Virus record (IMG/VR): IMGVR_UViG_3300044730_000471
Coordinates: 1-37,811 of that record
Length of the DNA: 37,811 bases
DNA from: a virus
Direction: 5' to 3' (one strand)
In this document: piece after piece, positions 1-37,811 of the stretch
Numbering within the stretch: the stretch's first letter is position 1
Layout: each line of letters starts with the position of its first letter
Made by a program: the position numbers and the translations under genes
Notes under the pieces: generated by a model
The model's database searches: none
The model's input: only the letters and a program-made list of their open reading frames with translations
Told to the model about the DNA's origin: nothing

Positions 1-66
1 GTACATGATATCCGTTGGGTCTGCCGTTCCTAACGGGGTTAAATCGGTTACTTTAACGCCTGCCAT
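1..66 (-). CDS. Partial start of fibre-like protein (second copy)
   Basis: The minus strand from 66 reads MAGVKVTDLTPLGTADPTDI and two further residues before the window edge. This is identical to the start of the complete 166-residue gene at 36226-36726. It is therefore the 5' end of that gene on the other assembled allele, cut by the window boundary, and not a separate gene. Confidence 0.85.
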   Translation of the reverse strand, partial: MAGVKVTDLTPLGTADPTDIMY

Positions 67-91
67 AAGGGTAGTTTTTAGTTGGGTAAAT

Positions 92-310
92 TTACAAATT
101 ATTCAGATACGTTAACGCATCTTCAGAACTCTTAAACTTTTGCGCATTTAGTTTGTGTTCTGTTACTGTGATGCAGTACACGCCCTGCTCAGTTATTACG
201 TGAAAGGATGTTTCATCCACAGCCTCCCAGCGCGGCTCGATTAGATTAAGCCACGGCAAGCCCGTTGAGGTAAATTCGATATTTGTCGATGTGATGTTTA
301 CGTTTGTCAT
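92..310 (-). CDS. Small tip-linked protein, allele 1 (72 aa)
   Basis: This 72-residue protein has no family I recognise. It directly follows the fibre gene, with a 4-nt ATGA overlap at 307-310. Only its C terminus (SSEDALTYLNNL) is shared with the 61-residue gene in the same place on the other allele (SSEDALEYLNNL); the rest is unrelated. Because it changes together with the fibre tip, a role as a fibre assembly chaperone or tip partner, in the manner of Tfa proteins, is a reasonable inference. No membrane segment or signal peptide is seen. Confidence 0.75.
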   Translation of the reverse strand: MTNVNITSTNIEFTSTGLPWLNLIEPRWEAVDETSFHVITEQGVYCITVTEHKLNAQKFKSSEDALTYLNNL

Positions 311-5947: not shown

Positions 5948-6343
5948 ATGGGCTACAAAAAAAATAAAACAAAAAAAAGAGCTTCAACAAAATCTAATAG
6001 GTTAAAGAATTACAACGATGTAAAAGGGTACACAAAAAAAGCTGAGTACCGAACAAAAAAACAATATCACGTTTACGTTTTAGAATGTGAAAACAACGCT
6101 TTCTATGTTGGCATAGCCTTAGATATTGAAAAGCGTTTTGAACAGCATTTAGGCGGCAATGGTGCGAAGTTTACAAAAGAAAACTACCCGACTAAAATTA
6201 TTGAAACAATGCCAACGCATACAATCGAAATAGGGTTGGCTTGTGTATTTGAAAATTACAAAGTTTGTGAGTATAGACGAAAGTACCCAAACCATAAAAT
6301 AGGCGGTGGCTCACGTAAATTAAGTACCGATAGATATAAATAA
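5948..6343 (+). CDS. GIY-YIG homing-type endonuclease
   Basis: This 131-residue protein is the only clear plus-strand gene. A lysine/arginine-rich N terminus (1-38) precedes a GIY-YIG nuclease core: HVYVLECENNAFYVGIALD (about 40-58) supplies the two beta strands with YVY and YVG, and the expected arginine follows in EKRFEQH. A conserved-looking Glu sits in FENYKVCEYRR. It lacks a recognisable separate DNA-binding domain, and the basic N terminus may serve. It sits behind a structured RNA region on the strand opposite to the capsid and scaffold transcripts, which marks the 5.48-6.34 kb block as an insertion. Free-standing or intron-derived homing is the likely role. Confidence 0.82.
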   Translation: MGYKKNKTKKRASTKSNRLKNYNDVKGYTKKAEYRTKKQYHVYVLECENNAFYVGIALDIEKRFEQHLGGNGAKFTKENYPTKIIETMPTHTIEIGLACVFENYKVCEYRRKYPNHKIGGGSRKLSTDRYK

Positions 6344-8671: not shown

Positions 8672-9583
8672 TTAATCAATATACCCCTCAGCTCTTGCGC
8701 GAGCCTTAACCGTTTCGGGAACTTTAGAAGCTGGCACGGGTACTAAAGTATGCCTACACTCCCAACCCCCGCGATTAACGAATATAGTTCTTTCGTCGGT
8801 ATTATCTATTCTACCCGCCCAAGTTCCGTTCCTAATATCGTTTATACCAGCGCTGTTTTCACCGCGCCCCCACGCCTCTATTTCTTTCTTATGGAATATT
8901 TGCCCTTGCCTATGTTCGCAGAACGGGCGCGTAGTTGGTATTTCACCGCCTAAGTATTGAAACCATTGTATACCGATTGCTTCATTAATTGCAGCCGAAT
9001 AACTATTATCTGCGATAGCTTGCGCGGTGCTTGCTACCGTTCTAACATTCCTTAATAATTTGCCGTCGATTTCTTTCGTTCCTATAATCGTTTGGCTTAA
9101 CGCTTTTACCGCTTGATTAAGCGGCGCTCGTGCGGCTACGTTTGCCGTTAGCTGCTCTAAAAACGGCTGCGATACAACTTGCCTTAATCCACTACCGAAA
9201 AAAGAATTAATTGCGTTCTGCTGGCTTATTTGGACTAAACGCCGTTGCGCTTCGGTAGGCTCAAAACCAGCCTCAAACTTTTGCGCTATTTCAGTAGATA
9301 GGTTTACGCCTTCTTGAATTTGACTTAGGAACTTTGAAACCGCATCCTTGTATTCGCCACCCGCTAAAACCTTATTGAGTTCATCGGCTATTAATCCGAT
9401 TCGATTTATGTTGGCATCCGTTTGAGTTATATTCCCGTCGCTATCAACGTCCATATCGCGAAGCAACGGCTCAACGGTTCGCCACGCGTCGAGTTGCGCA
9501 CGTTCCGCGCTGGTCGCCATATCCTTCGGTATCTGTTCAAATAACCGAATCTTTTTCTTAATCAGTTCGTCAAGCGATGCCAT
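8672..9583 (-). CDS. MuF-like minor head protein
   Basis: This 303-residue protein has a long helical N-terminal part and a C-terminal MuF-like signature: TTRPFCEHRQGQIFHKKEI (about 220-238), an internal NGTWAG stretch, and GGWECRHTLVPV (about 272-283). The paired Cys/His residues are typical of the phage head morphogenesis domain, which acts next to the portal in capsid assembly or is injected. Its start overlaps the portal stop by 14 nt, the usual portal-MuF order. Confidence 0.87.
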   Translation of the reverse strand: MASLDELIKKKIRLFEQIPKDMATSAERAQLDAWRTVEPLLRDMDVDSDGNITQTDANINRIGLIADELNKVLAGGEYKDAVSKFLSQIQEGVNLSTEIAQKFEAGFEPTEAQRRLVQISQQNAINSFFGSGLRQVVSQPFLEQLTANVAARAPLNQAVKALSQTIIGTKEIDGKLLRNVRTVASTAQAIADNSYSAAINEAIGIQWFQYLGGEIPTTRPFCEHRQGQIFHKKEIEAWGRGENSAGINDIRNGTWAGRIDNTDERTIFVNRGGWECRHTLVPVPASKVPETVKARARAEGYID

Positions 9584-11480
9584 TTAATAAATCGCGTTGC
9601 GCGGTTTGTATCGGGTCTAATTGCTCACGCACCTTCGAGGCTGCAATGTTTCTAAGCGCCACGACTTGCTCTTGTTGCGGTAAATCTGTAAACCTCGGGG
9701 CTTCCTCTGTTGGGATATAGTTACGGATTAATTCCATTACTAACTGAGGGGCGCTAAAGTGTAACACGTCCTGCCATTTTTCAACCGTACCGTTTGCAAC
9801 CCTCGCAGCAATATCGGCGCTACTCATTAGCAAAAGTTCGTCGGCGTTTATAATCAAATCATAAACCGCGCTCGTTTCTTCGTCTGTGTAGTGGATTGCC
9901 TTAATGTAATTGTAAACGTTTGAGAAAGTAACCGAAGGCGGAACACCCGCCGCGATACCTTCACCGATTACAGCTAAATAATCGCTCGGTGTGCTTACAT
10001 CAAAGGTCGTAGGATATACCAACGTAACACCCCCGAATAAGTCGCCGTAACGCATTTTACCTGTCGTTACAAGTATAAACTCATACAAACTAAATAGCTG
10101 GTCTGAAATAGGCTTTAAAAACGCATATAAGCTACGCATCTTGTTTAAGCTACCCGTAGCGGTTACGCCCTCGCCAACGCCTACCGAACTATCGCTCGTT
10201 GGTAGGTGTAAAATTGCGCGGGCTTTTTTCATTTGGTTATCTATTTCAACGCGCAAAAAGTTCAGCGTATCCATAGGAGGCGAAACGAATTTTAAGTATT
10301 CGCCACTTATACCGCTATCACCTTCGCTTACCGAGGTCTTAGGCTTAATCAAAAGCATACCCGTAGGGCTAAAACGCGACTTTAAACCGCCACCGCTACA
10401 CGAGGGGCAAGTGCGATAACCGCCGTTAATAGGGTCGAATATTTGACCGTCTACGCACTTATTACCTTCGCGGTCGATAAAGTCGCAAACCTCGCCTAAC
10501 GCAACCATAAAAGGAAATGCGCTCGTTGCTTTGCTTATTTGTAAATAACTTTCATCGAGTACGACTTGGTCTAAGAAAGGCACGGCGGTAATGAACGGAG
10601 ATTGAAATGCGATTTCGTCGTTAATGAGCTGTGGCGTACCCATTAGCTTATGGCATGGAACGTAGCCCAAATTATGCTGAAAGTAAAGCACGGGTTCGCT
10701 AAATTCCATATCGGACTTTTTACCAGTTTGGTAAATCTTCCAAATATTAGTATCGTCGTAAAGCTCTAAAACGATACCGCTTTTTTCCATCTTAGAACCG
10801 CTTTTTACATTGCTGTAATCGTCGGTTATAACAAGATAGTATTCGCCGAAACTTTGCCCTACAATCGACTTACAGGAATAGTAATGCGGCATCGGCTTTA
10901 GAAGCTCGTTGCTTATAACCTCGCTGTCGTCGCTTTCATCAGTTACCGTTTCAACATCCTCGGGTTCAACTGCGATAATGCCGTTCGGGTCTACCAGCTT
11001 TAAAGTCGGTAGCATCGTTTTAACGAACGCCTCTACGCTGCCAAATTTCTTTATTTCCTCGTTAACGAAACGCTGGAAACTATCTTCGCCGAAACGTTCA
11101 TCTAACTCAGGGAAATATTTAATACTCCAATTTTGGTCTGCGAATGCACGGCTTACCGTCGCTTTAAAATCCTCGAATACGCTTAAGGTAGTGGGCTTAT
11201 AATTAGCCTTAATGTATTGAGCCTGAACGTCGGTTTGGTTCGGGGCGCGAACACTAAGTAAATGTTCGGGGTAAATATCGGGGCGTGTATGCGGCAAAAT
11301 ACTATCGTACATCTTAGCCGAATAGTTATACCCGTCCCAATACTCGGGGTACTGACTTACGCCTTGCCGCTGTTTGCTTACGGGGTTTATCGGAGAGCTG
11401 CGACTCGCTTCGCTCCACGTTTTAAACTTAGCCGCAAAACGATTTACTACTTTCTCGATTTCCTCGGGTGTCAATGCCAT
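9570..11480 (-). CDS. Portal protein
   Basis: This 636-residue protein forms the dodecameric portal through which DNA is packaged. Evidence is its size, the position before the MuF-like gene, and the SPP1/HK97-like course with an N-terminal helical part and a long C-terminal alpha-helical wing (residues about 480-636). Unusually, a cysteine cluster occurs near residues 330-365: EVCDFIDREGNKC and later YRTCPSCSGGG, which resembles a zinc ribbon in the clip or wing region. The start codon shares its A with the TAA of the preceding 25-codon ORF (TAATG). Confidence 0.85.
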   Translation of the reverse strand: MALTPEEIEKVVNRFAAKFKTWSEASRSSPINPVSKQRQGVSQYPEYWDGYNYSAKMYDSILPHTRPDIYPEHLLSVRAPNQTDVQAQYIKANYKPTTLSVFEDFKATVSRAFADQNWSIKYFPELDERFGEDSFQRFVNEEIKKFGSVEAFVKTMLPTLKLVDPNGIIAVEPEDVETVTDESDDSEVISNELLKPMPHYYSCKSIVGQSFGEYYLVITDDYSNVKSGSKMEKSGIVLELYDDTNIWKIYQTGKKSDMEFSEPVLYFQHNLGYVPCHKLMGTPQLINDEIAFQSPFITAVPFLDQVVLDESYLQISKATSAFPFMVALGEVCDFIDREGNKCVDGQIFDPINGGYRTCPSCSGGGLKSRFSPTGMLLIKPKTSVSEGDSGISGEYLKFVSPPMDTLNFLRVEIDNQMKKARAILHLPTSDSSVGVGEGVTATGSLNKMRSLYAFLKPISDQLFSLYEFILVTTGKMRYGDLFGGVTLVYPTTFDVSTPSDYLAVIGEGIAAGVPPSVTFSNVYNYIKAIHYTDEETSAVYDLIINADELLLMSSADIAARVANGTVEKWQDVLHFSAPQLVMELIRNYIPTEEAPRFTDLPQQEQVVALRNIAASKVREQLDPIQTAQRDLLNGIA

Positions 11481-21533: not shown

Positions 21534-21865
21534 TCCATTAAGTTAACTACTTCGGGTTCTTCGCTTATTATTTCAATGTTCGCCACGCTAAAGCTAATGC
21601 AGTCGTATTCCACTTCACAAATCGTAAACTTATTGCACCCAGCTAACTCGAGCGTATAGCCCTGCCCGTTATCTATCTTAGCGCCCGTAATGGTTAACAG
21701 CCCGTCAATATCGGATTCTGCGTTAAACACTTGCAGCTTATTCGTGGCATTGCTCTTTAACGTTATTGTGTAGTTAGTTTCGGGTTCTACAAATCCGAAC
21801 GCTATACCGCCATTACAGTAAGCTACTTGAATGCCTGAATCGAAACAAGGAGAACAAACGCTCAT
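21512..21865 (-). CDS. Small cysteine-rich virion-type protein (117 aa)
   Basis: This 117-residue beta-rich protein has eight cysteines, including MSVCSPCFDSG at the start and LMECVECNG at the end. It follows the terminase gene with a 4-nt overlap (ATGA) and precedes the tail chaperones, where a tail tube or tail terminator is often found. It is small for a tube protein. No family recognised. Confidence 0.6.
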   Translation of the reverse strand: MSVCSPCFDSGIQVAYCNGGIAFGFVEPETNYTITLKSNATNKLQVFNAESDIDGLLTITGAKIDNGQGYTLELAGCNKFTICEVEYDCISFSVANIEIISEEPEVVNLMECVECNG

Positions 21866-23178
21866 AGGTATCTTTTAAGTATTGCGTTTACAAAGTAACG
21901 AAAACAATCTAAAAAGTCGGCACGCTCAGAAATGTTTTTTCGATTGCTCTTTATTATTTGCCCTTCAGCGTTGCATTGCACTTGCTTAGCATCAAAAACA
22001 AAGCCCTTACAATTTTTACTATTAACGCGTATATCGAGTTTCTTTAGCGCGGTATTGCAATCAATACGGCTGTTAACGTGGCGCGGGTTTGCTGGTATTA
22101 TAATTTGGTTATCGGCTAACTTGAGGCGGCGTTTAATCTGAATGTAAGCGCTCGAGTTATCGCGCTCCTGTATTGTACCGCCTTTGCCCATTGCGTCGCC
22201 CGTTATGCGTATTAAGCCCGTTGGTATGTTCAATGCTTCGACCGCATCGCAGAACGCGTCTATCGAACCGCGCTCTATCTTTATTTCATCCACTACGGTA
22301 GCCGTGCTTCCAACGTTTTGAATAATCAAAGCGCATAACGGGTTAATATTGAAATCGACGCTTATAAACGTCGGTAAGTGCGCGTTGTGCGTTACACTAT
22401 CATCGATGTGCTTTTCGTCGCTCCAAGCGTATAGGAACGGGTTAGCAACGTCATCGAGTACATCCCAATCACCCTCGACAAATCGAGCGTATTGAATAGG
22501 TGGTAATTCCTTTAGCGCTTCGAGGTATTCAGGCGCGATGTGTGGGTTATCAGTTATACGGCTCGGTATGTAAGCCCAACGTTCGGGTAATGTGTTTTCG
22601 CGGTAACGGTTGTATATAATCGACTTAACCCAGTTTTGAGCAGGGTTGCACGTTGCGAGGCAAACGATAGGCGGCTTGCCGTGTGCCTTATTCCATGAGC
22701 CTATACGTTCCTGAACTTTGTAGAATGTTACTTCCTGTAATTCGTTTACTTCATCTAAGCCCGCGCCGTTAATCTCTAAACCTCGAAAGCGGTTAAGGTC
22801 TTTATCGTCGTCGAAACTTTCTGCCATAAACATAAGCTCCGAACCGTTTGTAAATGTTATAACGTTTGTTTCCCTATTCCAGTTCTTAACATAACTACTT
22901 ACGCCGTCCATCATTATCGAGGCAAAGCTCGGGAACGTGGTACGCTTTAAGTCGGGTAGGCTTTTACGAATAACCGCCCATCGGCTGCGCGGGTATGTTA
23001 AACAAAGCGATGTTAGTGTTAAAAGTAACCAATACGTTTTCCCGCCGCGAATCTTTGCCCCCACCCTTTCGAGCAGGGGCGGTTATCGTATAGCGCCCCC
23101 GAAGACAATTACTCTTTTGTCCCCGTTGGTCGCCATATCGAAGGCTGTTGTTTGTGTTTCAGTTAGCGTAAATTGCAT
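21862..23178 (-). CDS. terL: Terminase large subunit, interrupted in the Walker A codons
   Basis: The gene starts at 23178 (MQFTLTETQTTAF) and reads to DKRVIVFGGAIR, beta strand 1 plus the first half of the P-loop. It then meets TAA (23085-23083). The same frame resumes GGKTYWLL at 23046 and runs to 21862 with Walker B AGLDEVNE, nuclease motif ISVDFNINP, RITGDAMG and DFLDCFRYF. Removing 39 nt joins GGAIR to GGKT, a perfect GxxxxGKT, in a 425-residue protein of normal length. A GTG at 23064 could only start a 400-residue form that lacks the P-loop strand and the first P-loop glycine. I expect translational bypassing, or else a defective gene or a sequence error. Confidence 0.85.
23047..23088 (-). 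other. Candidate translational bypass element in terL
   Basis: Take-off codon CGA (23088-23086) is followed by TAA, then CCGCCC (23082-23077) pairing with GGGTGG (23066-23061) in a hairpin right after the stop. The landing codon would be CGC (23049-23047), readable by the same arginine tRNA if its anticodon is ICG, and decoding resumes at GGC. The gap is 39 nt counting the landing codon. The element lies in the most conserved codons of the gene, beside a homing endonuclease gene. T4 gene 60 has the same parts: matched codons, stop in a hairpin, linked endonuclease mobA. Confidence 0.65.
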
Positions 23179-23683
23179 ATCCTTTATTTAGCCTCTTTAC
23201 TGATGAAATAGAACAGTTATATAAATCGGCTATTATTTGGTTTTTAACGCCTTCAGATTTTAGTTTTACAATTGCCTCAATACTTTCTTTAGTTTGCTTA
23301 CAACGGCTGCTTTCGTGTAGGCGCTTTGGCTTTGATAGCCCGTTTTCATATGCGTGCTTTACGTTTTCTGAATTATTAACCCACTCTAAATTATTTATGG
23401 CGTTATTCAACTTATTGCCGTCTTTATGGTTTACTTGAGGTTTATTATTAACGTTTTCAATGAACGCCATAGCAACAAGCCTATGTACTTTTAAAGTACT
23501 TAGTTTACCATTAATCATTATCGCTACACGCTTATAACCTTTCTTATCGATAGCTGGTTTCAATAGTTTGCCTTTTAATTTTAAAGGCTGCTTTCGCGTT
23601 TCTACTATCCTATCAATACTGCGAACGTTTCCTAAATTAGAAACCTCGTATCCGCTTTCAAATACTTTCCAAATTTCAATCAT
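23159..23683 (-). CDS. HNH homing endonuclease (NUMOD4-HNH)
   Basis: I start at MIEIWKVFESGYEVSNLGNV (23683), which overlaps the terminase small subunit stop by 8 nt. The 174-residue protein has an N-terminal NUMOD4 domain (about 1-45), an HNH core (HRLVAMAFIENV, then QVNHKDGNKLNN and NNLEWVNNSEN, about 75-115) and a C-terminal helix-turn-helix (about 135-170, with IIADLYNCSISSVKRL). It sits between the two terminase genes and overlaps terL by 20 nt. This is a free-standing homing endonuclease whose probable target is the conserved P-loop region of intron-less or bypass-less terL alleles. Confidence 0.88.
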   Translation of the reverse strand: MIEIWKVFESGYEVSNLGNVRSIDRIVETRKQPLKLKGKLLKPAIDKKGYKRVAIMINGKLSTLKVHRLVAMAFIENVNNKPQVNHKDGNKLNNAINNLEWVNNSENVKHAYENGLSKPKRLHESSRCKQTKESIEAIVKLKSEGVKNQIIADLYNCSISSVKRLNKGYAIYAN

Positions 23684-24107
23684 TCTTTTCTTTTGTTTCG
23701 GTTCGCACAATAACAAGCGGCTCGGTGGTGGTAATGGTATTTTCTCCATTATTGCTCCAGCGCCCGCGCTGCCTATTTGCTAACCAATGTTTCGCCGCCG
23801 CCGTATCAGAGGGTAGCTGCTTGCGTAGCTTTACTACTTCACCGTCCTTTGTTACCGCCTCTTCGACTATCGTTACACCTAATGCACGTTCGTACATCGA
23901 GCGCGCTACTTTAGCGTCCGCGTCCTCTTTTCCGCGTGTTAATGACTCTAAAAATGTGGGTTGGGCGCGTTTCCAATTATTAAACGTCGCCTCACATATA
24001 TCGAACGCCGCTGCCATTTGTACATCGTTAAGCCCGAGCAAAGCAAGATTAAACGCTCGTTCGTCGTATTCGGGTTTATAGTCGGTTGGTCTACCTAATT
24101 TTTTCAT
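23676..24107 (-). CDS. terS: Terminase small subunit
   Basis: This 143-residue protein begins with a helix-turn-helix: RPTDYKPEYDERAFNLALLG, then NDVQMAAAFDICEATFNNW (about 27-45), as in small terminases that bind the packaging site. A helical oligomerisation part follows, with KEDADAKVARSMYERALG, and a C-terminal tail contacting TerL. It overlaps the 47-residue gene as ATGA and precedes the homing endonuclease and terL. Confidence 0.88.
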   Translation of the reverse strand: MKKLGRPTDYKPEYDERAFNLALLGLNDVQMAAAFDICEATFNNWKRAQPTFLESLTRGKEDADAKVARSMYERALGVTIVEEAVTKDGEVVKLRKQLPSDTAAAKHWLANRQRGRWSNNGENTITTTEPLVIVRTETKEKND

Positions 24108-36225: not shown

Positions 36226-36726
36226 TTAGAGAATGATGTATTGGATGTTGGCAACTGCGGTTAAAGTATCACCAGAAGTTGCAAGTTCAATAGTAAAGCT
36301 AATTTGGTCGAATGCTGTATCAGCATTTATAACTGCGCTAACTAAATTAGCATAAGGGTCTGTAATTGGAGTAAGTACACCAAACGCATCGCGAGCATTT
36401 GTAAAATTACTTGCAACAGGTGGCGCAATATTGAAGCTGCCTACTGTAATTCCAACGTCTAAGGTAATACTTAAATAATAAGTGCAAGTAACAATGTTAT
36501 TTACACGGCTATACAAAGCACGCAAGCAAGTTACGGTACAATCGTTTTCGCCCGATATGGTTGCACTCGAAGTAAAATCCCCACCCCCTATATCAGGCAA
36601 ACCGCTAAATAGGTTCTGCACCTCAATCTTTTTAGATTGGTTCGCAGTTGTATCCACGATGTACATGATATCCGTTGGGTCTGCCGTTCCTAACGGGGTT
36701 AAATCGGTTACTTTAACGCCTGCCAT
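36226..36726 (-). CDS. Fibre-like structural protein (166 aa)
   Basis: Begins MAGVKVTDLTPLGTADPTDI followed by MYIVDTTANQSKKIEVQNLF, a starting block I associate with tail-fibre-type proteins of Bacteroidota phages (VTDL-x-PLGTAxxTDIxYIVD). The rest is a beta-rich C-terminal domain with a C-x3-C pair (CTVTCLRAL). It may be an accessory fibre or spike. It lies between the fibre tip locus and the endolysin. Its first 22 codons appear again at 1-66 because of the assembly overlap. Confidence 0.72.
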   Translation of the reverse strand: MAGVKVTDLTPLGTADPTDIMYIVDTTANQSKKIEVQNLFSGLPDIGGGDFTSSATISGENDCTVTCLRALYSRVNNIVTCTYYLSITLDVGITVGSFNIAPPVASNFTNARDAFGVLTPITDPYANLVSAVINADTAFDQISFTIELATSGDTLTAVANIQYIIL

Positions 36727-36751
36727 AAGGGTTGTTTTTAGTTTGGTAAAT

Positions 36752-36937
36752 TTACAAATTATTTAGATACTCTAACGCATCTTCTGAACTATCAATTTTT
36801 GCTTGTTGTTTATCGTATTCAACCGCCCATTCTTTAACGATTTCTTCAATTTCTTGTTCTTTTAAATCAACTCTGTCAGCACCAATCATTCGGTGCGTTG
36901 GCGAATCAAATGGGTACTCTTTTCCGTTGACTATCAT
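36752..36937 (-). CDS. Small tip-linked protein, allele 2 (61 aa)
   Basis: Reads MIVNGKEYPFDSPTHRMIGA and ends DSSEDALEYLNNL. Only the ending is shared with the 72-residue gene at 92-310, which takes its place on the other allele. The helical middle (DLKEQEIEEIVKEWAVEYDK) is charged. It overlaps the fibre stop as ATGA. Likely cognate to the fibre tip next to it. Confidence 0.75.
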   Translation of the reverse strand: MIVNGKEYPFDSPTHRMIGADRVDLKEQEIEEIVKEWAVEYDKQQAKIDSSEDALEYLNNL

Positions 36938-37811
36938 AGGTAAGATTCGATTATTATTTTTCCGCTTATATTACCAGTACTACACTGAAACCTTAAAGAC
37001 GTTACTGCATCGGTCGCATTGTATAGACCGTGAATTGTACCGCCCACGAATAAGCCGCTATTAAATATCGTACTTATGTTTCCGTTGACTTGCTTTTTTA
37101 AGGTAGTGCTGTCAGGGTTATACAATGTATAGTTCCCGTTAAATGCTTGACCGCTCGAACCAGTTGGCATTGCAGCACCTAATAACACCATCTTAGTGTC
37201 ACTTGCAGAACCAGTGTTAGCTAATGCAGTAGAAGACCCTCCAAGTATTCTGTAATGCGAGTAATTGCCTGCACCCGATTGAATTACTGATGGACTACCA
37301 ATACCAACTCTATGCCATAATTCCGAGTTAGCCGTCCCGGCTGTAATATCGACCATAAAAATCTTATGGTGTGAGTAACCAACAGGAATTGGTACGTCTA
37401 AACTTGCTGCACTCGAAGCGATGTATTCATTTCGAACAAAGCCACTGGGCATTGTCGCAAGCGTTCCATCGCCTCTCACATATTGCGCTGTCGTGCCGCT
37501 TGGCGTGTTGAACTTGCCATTGAATGTAGTCCAATCCGCTGTGCTTAATGCGCCTCGATTGCTTGCGCTGGCAGTTGGTAGATTGAAAGTGTGCGTGCTG
37601 CTTGCCGAGCTTATGCCGAAGTCCGTGCCGCTTGTACCCGTTGCGAAGTTTTGCACTTGCGCGGTCAAGCCGTTTAATGCGTTTAGCCCTGTGGTGAAAG
37701 TTGTGAGTACTTGGCAAAGGTTGTTGTCCTCAGTGTGCAGCGTAATGTTTCGCCCCGATGTAGTTACGAAAATGCGTACTGCGAGCCTATCAGTTGCAGC
37801 CAATACTATCG
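36934..37811 (-). CDS. Tail fibre C-terminal part, allele 2 (cut by window edge)
   Basis: The frame runs off the right edge, so the true start lies outside this reading. The first 120 or so residues match the fibre at 307-2661 (LAATDRLAVRIFVTTSGRNI through STADWTTFNGKF and QYVRGDGTLA). After that the sequence departs entirely: PSGFVRNEYIASSAASLDVP starts a different distal tip of about 170 residues ending GKIIIESYL. It is an alternative receptor-binding end of the same fibre. Confidence 0.85.
   Translation of the reverse strand, partial: IVLAATDRLAVRIFVTTSGRNITLHTEDNNLCQVLTTFTTGLNALNGLTAQVQNFATGTSGTDFGISSASSTHTFNLPTASASNRGALSTADWTTFNGKFNTPSGTTAQYVRGDGTLATMPSGFVRNEYIASSAASLDVPIPVGYSHHKIFMVDITAGTANSELWHRVGIGSPSVIQSGAGNYSHYRILGGSSTALANTGSASDTKMVLLGAAMPTGSSGQAFNGNYTLYNPDSTTLKKQVNGNISTIFNSGLFVGGTIHGLYNATDAVTSLRFQCSTGNISGKIIIESYL

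Follow-up and report, generated by a model that had tools for sequence, protein, structure and literature searches.

The interrupted terL gene of the window

The DNA analyzed here, called the window, is a 37,811-base virus record from IMG/VR; it has a single terminase gene and no second terL. Translation of this gene on the minus strand from the ATG at 23178 gave MQFTLTETQTTAFDMATNGDKRVIVFGGAIR followed by a TAA codon, and after 39 nt the reading frame resumed as GGKTYWLLL, confirming the proposal of an earlier note on this DNA that terL is broken by a TAA and continues in frame at GGKT. Leaving out these 39 nt (23085-23047) restored the P-loop sequence GGAIRGGKT, with CGC-GGC-GGG-AAA as the codons of resumption. 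The downstream part of the gene matched Pfam Terminase_6N (PF03237). An open reading frame (ORF) for an HNH endonuclease overlaps the start of terL by 20 nt, as had been claimed. The features of the locus are given in Table 1.

Table 1. Features of the interrupted terL locus of the window
Feature	Position	Strand	Comment
terL 5' coding part (exon 1)	23086..23178	-	31 codons, ATG...ATA-CGA; the last is the putative take-off Arg codon CGA
Putative take-off codon CGA	23088-23086	-	
Segment proposed to be bypassed, 39 nt, TAACCGCCCCTGCTCGAAAGGGTGGGGGCAAAGATTCGC	23047..23085	-	TAA to landing CGC inclusive
Stop codon TAA, first in the gap	23085-23083	-	
Putative landing codon CGC	23049-23047	-	
Predicted RNA hairpin, 10 bp, GCCCCTGCTC GAAA GGGTGGGGGC	23057..23080	-	Fold z-score, covariation and covariance model
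terL main coding part (exon 2)	21862..23046	-	GGKT... to stop, 394 codons; PF03237 Terminase_6N
HNH homing-type endonuclease ORF (NUMOD4 + HNH_3)	23159..23749	-	Likely real start ATG 23683
Gene upstream of the cassette	23676..24107	-	Small terminase by position and size; no Pfam match

Intact relatives carry GGAIRGGKT without a gap. In the structure predicted for one of them (L014), a strand (residues 23 to 28) was followed by a loop (29 to 33) and a helix (34 to 48), and the gap was placed inside the P-loop because the insertion site falls in the loop between strand and helix. A Foldseek search with this model matched the solved large terminases of D6E, Sf6, HK97 and T4 (gp17), whereas a sequence search of solved structures with an intact TerL gave no match. 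The 3' end of the window insert, GGGGGC-AAAGATT-CGC, was similar to the take-off context, GGGGGC-GCTATA-CGA (both within 23047-23100), and because of this resemblance the insert may have originated as a duplication of P-loop codons.

Window positions 1-143 overlapped 36661-36802, and 794-1151 overlapped 37454-37811, with identities of 93% and 96%, respectively. These overlaps surround a repetitive tail-type gene, and strain variation was present at the join. From these overlaps of 93 to 96% identity, the record was inferred to be a nearly complete genome, with a contig running a little beyond one turn of the circle. A GIY-YIG endonuclease gene (PF01541, E 1e-9) at 5948-6343 on the plus strand, opposite to the structural genes, is probably another mobile endonuclease. 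No phage-encoded tRNA was found in the window, and a 636-amino-acid protein encoded at 9570-11480 had no match.

Interrupted and intact terL genes among relatives

Relatives were gathered by two surveys based on protein similarity and by pattern searches, read singly and pooled in one table; the retrieval patterns were biased toward CGN codons and GGNGC motifs, whereas the two similarity-based surveys were not. After removal of duplicates there were 68 distinct interrupted and 97 distinct intact terL sequences, originating from many independent metagenomes. In all 68 interrupted genes the gap separated the P-loop Ile from GGK and a stop codon was present in the frame of exon 1, with TAA, TAG and TGA all used. 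The gap lengths of these distinct sequences were 6 nt (n = 32), 10 nt (n = 1), 11 nt (n = 1), 39 nt (n = 20), 40 nt (n = 1) and 41 nt (n = 13), such that frame classes 0, 1 and 2 contained 52, 2 and 14 genes, respectively. Exon 1 was ∼28 to 35 codons long in all interrupted relatives, and the genes fell into several divergent terminase groups with identities down to ∼41 to 46% and beyond. The recurrence of an interruption at one site, with varied inserts, across 68 distinct sequences is far beyond chance. The earlier inference of an independent event needs correction in this respect; the interruption is not a one-off and belongs to a widespread mobile family that includes putative 6-nt stop-hops.

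All carriers were uncultured and metagenomic. No named phage record with an interrupted terL was found, and named phages were <60% identical in TerL. The only indication of Bacteroidota hosts was a weak resemblance in TerL to phages of Flavobacterium, Cellulophaga and Polaribacter.

A candidate "13-nt" class (L420, L431, L438 and L453) was dropped, as these P-loops were intact and had merely been read in a different frame. A first scan with ATACG...CCCC...GGGGGC was too loose and gave one weak terL in a tblastn check, among the matches listed. An apparent second, intact terL in record G001 (L294-L296, 52 kb) was explained by the assembly, in which two 34.5-kb strains had been joined into one wrap-around contig. 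This was the sole record with two copies, and a second intact terL in the genome, which would have counted against the earlier note, was therefore not found. The two related genomes in this record were ∼93% identical, one with an interrupted and the other with an intact terL.

The 6-nt inserts were found in 40 contigs as CGN-stop-CGN flanked by GGNGCNATH and GGNGGNAAR. The first pattern for this class allowed TAA, TAG, TGA or TGG as the middle codon and gave stops only (TGA, n = 34; TAA, n = 3; TAG, n = 3). With the middle codon left free (CGN-NNN-CGN), the same 40 terL genes were recovered, all with a stop, together with three chance matches that were not terL. The first pattern gave only three chance matches in bacterial and archaeal genome contigs, all with TGG and none in a terminase, and hence no host genome or prophage was found. 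An in-frame start before GGK was not possible in any of the 32 distinct 6-nt sequences. Members of this class would be natural stop-hops, the hopping itself being inferred. One terL gene with a 6-nt stop-hop (L405:71-2239) also has an in-frame intein-like segment with an HNH domain (Pfam Intein_splicing, residues 414 to 682, slightly below the curated cut-off), a single gene with two different routes for surviving an endonuclease.

Take-off and landing codons

The putative take-off and landing codons were both CGN in 65 of 68 interrupted genes, often with a different third base. The exceptions were a GTA take-off codon in L288 and a TGA in place of the expected landing Arg codon in two related genes with 40- and 41-nt gaps (L302 and L303). 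CGA (n = 38) was the commonest take-off codon, followed by CGG (n = 18) and CGC (n = 11); CGT was absent at this position and present at the same position in 27 of 97 intact genes. The absence of CGT at take-off, with the weakly pairing CGA being the commonest codon, is only suggestive, as the sequences are related. Re-pairing from CGG to CGA or from CGC to CGT would be imperfect at the third base, which is a point against a bypass model, as are the exceptions L288, L302 and L303.

The stop directly followed the take-off codon in every insert of 6, 10 or 11 nt and in 16 of the 20 39-nt inserts, and was two or eight codons past take-off in the other interrupted genes. In six 41-nt inserts (L341, L345, L347, L354, L356 and L369) the first stop was eight codons past take-off and in the hairpin region. 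These six sequences indicated that an A-site stop is not always present, which also counts against the model, although such a stop may be dispensable for the proposed hop.

A conserved hairpin in the long inserts

The best predicted hairpin of the window insert had a 10-bp stem and a GAAA tetraloop and began three bases past the TAA, in place of the 6-bp hairpin starting at the base after the TAA that had been described earlier. Its minimum free energy was -19.8 kcal/mol (z, -3.4), and none of 200 shuffled sequences was equally stable. When the site was folded in a 91-nt context, a rival pairing with the upstream GGGGGC was present and the z-score was only -1.2. Inserts from the window and its relatives had a 9- to 11-bp stem, often with a GAAA or GCAA loop, and most fold z-scores were between -2 and -5.6, with one at -1.2. 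Among 17 aligned inserts, 92.8% of the cells were paired and 19 cells carried a change in both partners (0 of 500 shuffles); for covariation, the score was 0.411 compared to ≤0.082 with a slid partner. The hairpin with covariation was a property of the 39- to 41-nt class; gaps of 6 to 11 nt are too short for one. In each carrier genome a covariance model gave a single strong match, located at terL.

Selection on the two exons

Pooled pairwise dN/dS values for the interrupted genes were 0.14 to 0.20 for exon 1 and 0.07 to 0.09 for exon 2, the pairs not being independent. Comparison of exon 1 with the nearest intact lineage detected 10 to 19 synonymous and 3 to 6 replaced codons out of 28. As synonymous changes far outnumbered replacements, these results indicated that the exon 1 protein is under selection despite the stop that follows it. 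The purifying selection on exon 2 may derive partly from intact periods, because the state of the insert switches often; exon 1 travels with the insert and is hence the better witness. Among interrupted genes with room for it, 57 of 59 had a full-length downstream frame, compared to 90 of 90 intact genes.

Association with an HNH endonuclease and mobility of the cassette

The closest solved structure to the HNH ORF of the window was 1u3e, an "HNH homing endonuclease" (E 2.6e-16), and relatives of this ORF immediately preceded terL in members of the 6-, 39- and 41-nt classes. For distinct loci with at least 800 nt of upstream sequence, a NUMOD4/HNH_3 gene lay next to terL on its upstream side in 18 of 57 interrupted loci but in none of the 89 intact loci (Fisher P, 6.5e-9). 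The search for uninterrupted relatives without the HNH gene, which the earlier note had put forward as a check, was thus met by 97 intact terL genes and by the absence of the HNH gene from every intact locus examined.

Traces of insertion were detected in four loci (L379, L375, L397 and L401), in which an old exon 1, 96 to 98% identical to intact L364 and L343, was still present upstream and ran to the GGCGG(A/G)GC of the P-loop. It was followed by ∼616 nt containing an HNH ORF that overlapped a second, recoded exon 1 and CGG-TGA-CGR, and then by exon 2. This arrangement, with the old exon 1 up to the P-loop and exon 2 after ∼616 nt, indicated that the cassette lies inside the P-loop codons of a terL that is intact elsewhere, and from these junctions the putative hop site is the right-hand junction of the cassette in all four loci. 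In the group of the window, the HNH gene replaces the terS-terL junction and exon 1 has been exchanged; upstream of the window cassette, the flank matched intact relatives at 93% identity as far as the cassette.

In 35 interrupted loci compared with a close intact relative, the identity was 0.943 in exon 2 and 0.728 in exon 1, whereas control pairs of intact genes had identities of 0.944 and 0.937, respectively. For loci with a divergent exon 2, the best match of exon 1 was another interrupted gene in 64 of 67 cases. At least 18 changes of insert state were forced by the well-supported branches of the exon 2 tree, and genes with and without an insert could share an identical exon 2 protein.

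Proposed model and alternative explanations

We consider the best reading of these data, with a probability of about 0.8, to be a homing cassette in terL that consists of the HNH gene, a recoded version of the first ∼30 codons and a bypassed segment over which the ribosome hops, with the carrier being immune to the endonuclease. The ribosome would translate exon 1 and stall at an Arg CGN codon facing a stop, or a sense codon and then a stop, with a GC-rich hairpin also ahead of it in the long class. The peptidyl-tRNA-Arg would then release the take-off codon, the ribosome would skip 6 to 41 nt and re-pair at the second CGN, and translation would resume at GGN-GGN-AAR (Gly-Gly-Lys), restoring GGAIRGGKT. 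Together, the insert and the recoded version of exon 1 would destroy the endonuclease target in the P-loop codons; with the target destroyed, the carrier is proposed to be immune and intact relatives to remain open to cutting and conversion.

The site, the stop, the frame classes, the missing starts, the covariation, the selection, the HNH linkage, the insertion in the P-loop and the mobility can be read directly from the sequences compared. The hop step is strongly supported by this comparison, in the absence of protein, ribosome-profiling or reporter data; the occurrence of hopping, its efficiency and the cutting of intact terL by the HNH protein are inferred. Immunity of the carrier is inferred from the linkage, the insertion site and the precedent of T4. 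The central proposal of the earlier note, a bypass cassette in terL tied to a homing endonuclease, was supported by every comparative test able to refute it.

The alternative that survives best, although we regard it as unlikely, is that the bypass is real and kept mainly as an expression valve that holds TerL output low and is sensitive to release factor or to the state of the host, the HNH protein being an unrelated neighbor or an HK97-like packaging cofactor. HK97-type HNH proteins do work with terminase (discussed in PMC10448857), and most carriers have no HNH gene: it was not nearby in 39 of 57 interrupted loci, so that the homing cassette model needs loss of the HNH gene after homing. 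Against a valve with an incidental neighbor are the complete absence of the gene from intact loci, its membership of the NUMOD4/HNH_3 class, nearest to a homing endonuclease structure, and the insertion inside the P-loop with rapid gain and loss, which fit homing.

Removal of the segment before translation, from the RNA as a tiny intron or from the DNA, would also produce an exact P-loop and is improbable. Phage ICP1 splices a terL intron, as demonstrated by RT-PCR, in collaborative homing with an adjacent T5orf172 endonuclease gene (PMC10448857). In ICP1, too, the break lies close to the 5' end of terL and the gene for a free-standing homing endonuclease is adjacent, but the ICP1 segment is a spliced intron whereas the gaps described here, at 6 to 41 nt, are too short for a known intron, and those of 6 to 11 nt are too short for introns of any known kind. 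An Rfam search of the interruption site detected no family at E values up to 1. Furthermore, removal would leave one CGN free to vary, yet both codons are CGN in nearly all genes, and the stop is kept in 40 of 40 6-nt inserts.

Restart of translation, with the stop ending a 31-amino-acid peptide and a shorter TerL beginning at GTG 23064, is very improbable. In the window this GTG is in frame and six codons ahead of GGK; however, the position is GCG in near-identical interrupted genes, and 46 of 68 interrupted genes have no in-frame ATG, GTG or TTG upstream of GGK, the next start being 7 to 73 residues past it. The observation made earlier that this start would lose the beta strand and the first glycine of the P-loop stands as an argument against restart; the GTG itself is not conserved. 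Restart would also leave the amino-acid selection on exon 1 unexplained. A dead gene or an assembly artifact is equally hard to sustain. Stop codons within essential genes usually point to decay, and 2 of 59 interrupted genes had a further early stop, but the interruption recurs in independent metagenomes with inserts that are varied yet structured, purifying selection and compensatory stem changes are present, and near-complete genomes have no other terL. Stop-codon readthrough, the weakest alternative, would be open to the in-frame 6- and 39-nt inserts but not to the out-of-frame 10-, 11-, 40- and 41-nt inserts, would place 2 or 13 extra residues inside the P-loop and would have to operate on all three stop codons. 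Relatives with out-of-frame gaps or without an upstream start hence cannot use either readthrough or an internal start, and a hop within a homing cassette remains the preferred explanation.

Relation to known bypass systems

To our knowledge, translational bypass in phages has been documented in detail for T4 gene 60 alone. That system has the HNH gene mobA upstream, a split gene, a take-off codon, a stop, a tetraloop hairpin and a matched landing codon (PMC3014915, PMC5009743; original reports, Huang 1988 and Bonocora 2011). The terL genes are similar in that an essential phage gene contains a short, putatively untranslated segment and, in most of them, a proposed take-off codon directly followed by a stop; in having, in the long class, a predicted tetraloop hairpin and, in most genes, a landing codon resembling the take-off codon; and in the HNH homing endonuclease gene just upstream in part of the loci, the splitting of the gene by the endonuclease and the proposed protection from cleavage. 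The differences are a topoisomerase in T4 versus a terminase, Gly GGA versus Arg CGN codons that are often non-identical, a gap of 50 nt versus 6 to 41 nt and an exon 1 of 46 codons versus ∼28 to 35 codons. Moreover, the terL interruption occurs in many lineages as opposed to T4 and includes a 6-nt class without a gap hairpin.

Stop-hops have been observed on synthetic constructs in Escherichia coli (Weiss 1987, as cited in PMC5009743), in which nine bases, codon-stop-codon, specify one amino acid, as proposed here for CGN-TRR-CGN; the putative terL version differs in that it occurs naturally, is conserved and belongs to an essential phage gene. According to a 2016 review, no in-frame stop-hop was known from nature (PMC5009743). 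The byp elements of Magnusiomyces capitatus mitochondria, at 81 scattered sites and with no known dedicated endonuclease (PMC5009743), are also short inserts bypassed in translation, in many copies and with matches that are not always perfect, but they differ in being at 81 sites in a mitochondrion rather than at one site in phages with an HNH gene. A 29-nt hop in Prevotella loescheii was never confirmed (PMC5009743).

The earlier note knew of no described bypass in a terminase. This does not hold, since a bypass over a UUA codon had already been proposed for the terminase of Streptomyces phage Hau3 (as cited in PMC5009743). Hau3 resembles the present case as a candidate bypass in a terminase gene; the differences are a short gap tied to UUA and host tRNA usage and, as far as that citation goes, no reported insert cassette or endonuclease. 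No report of the interrupted terL family was found in the literature after 2016, as covered by open-access papers only.

Implications

On this reading, gene finders mis-annotate such terminases, dropping the first ∼30 residues and half of the P-loop. The family comprises dozens of naturally occurring variants at one codon, for which the intact relatives serve as controls, and rules for take-off, landing, hairpin and tRNA become testable by comparison. Neither an intron nor an intein would be needed for an endonuclease to become established in an essential gene at its most conserved motif. From the comparisons made here, we think it likely that widespread phage homing cassettes hop at one fixed P-loop codon of the terminase with gaps of 6 to 41 nt, that the 6-nt class would represent a natural stop-hop in an essential gene and that hopping over a stop would be an ordinary, evolvable means of gene rescue after endonuclease insertion.
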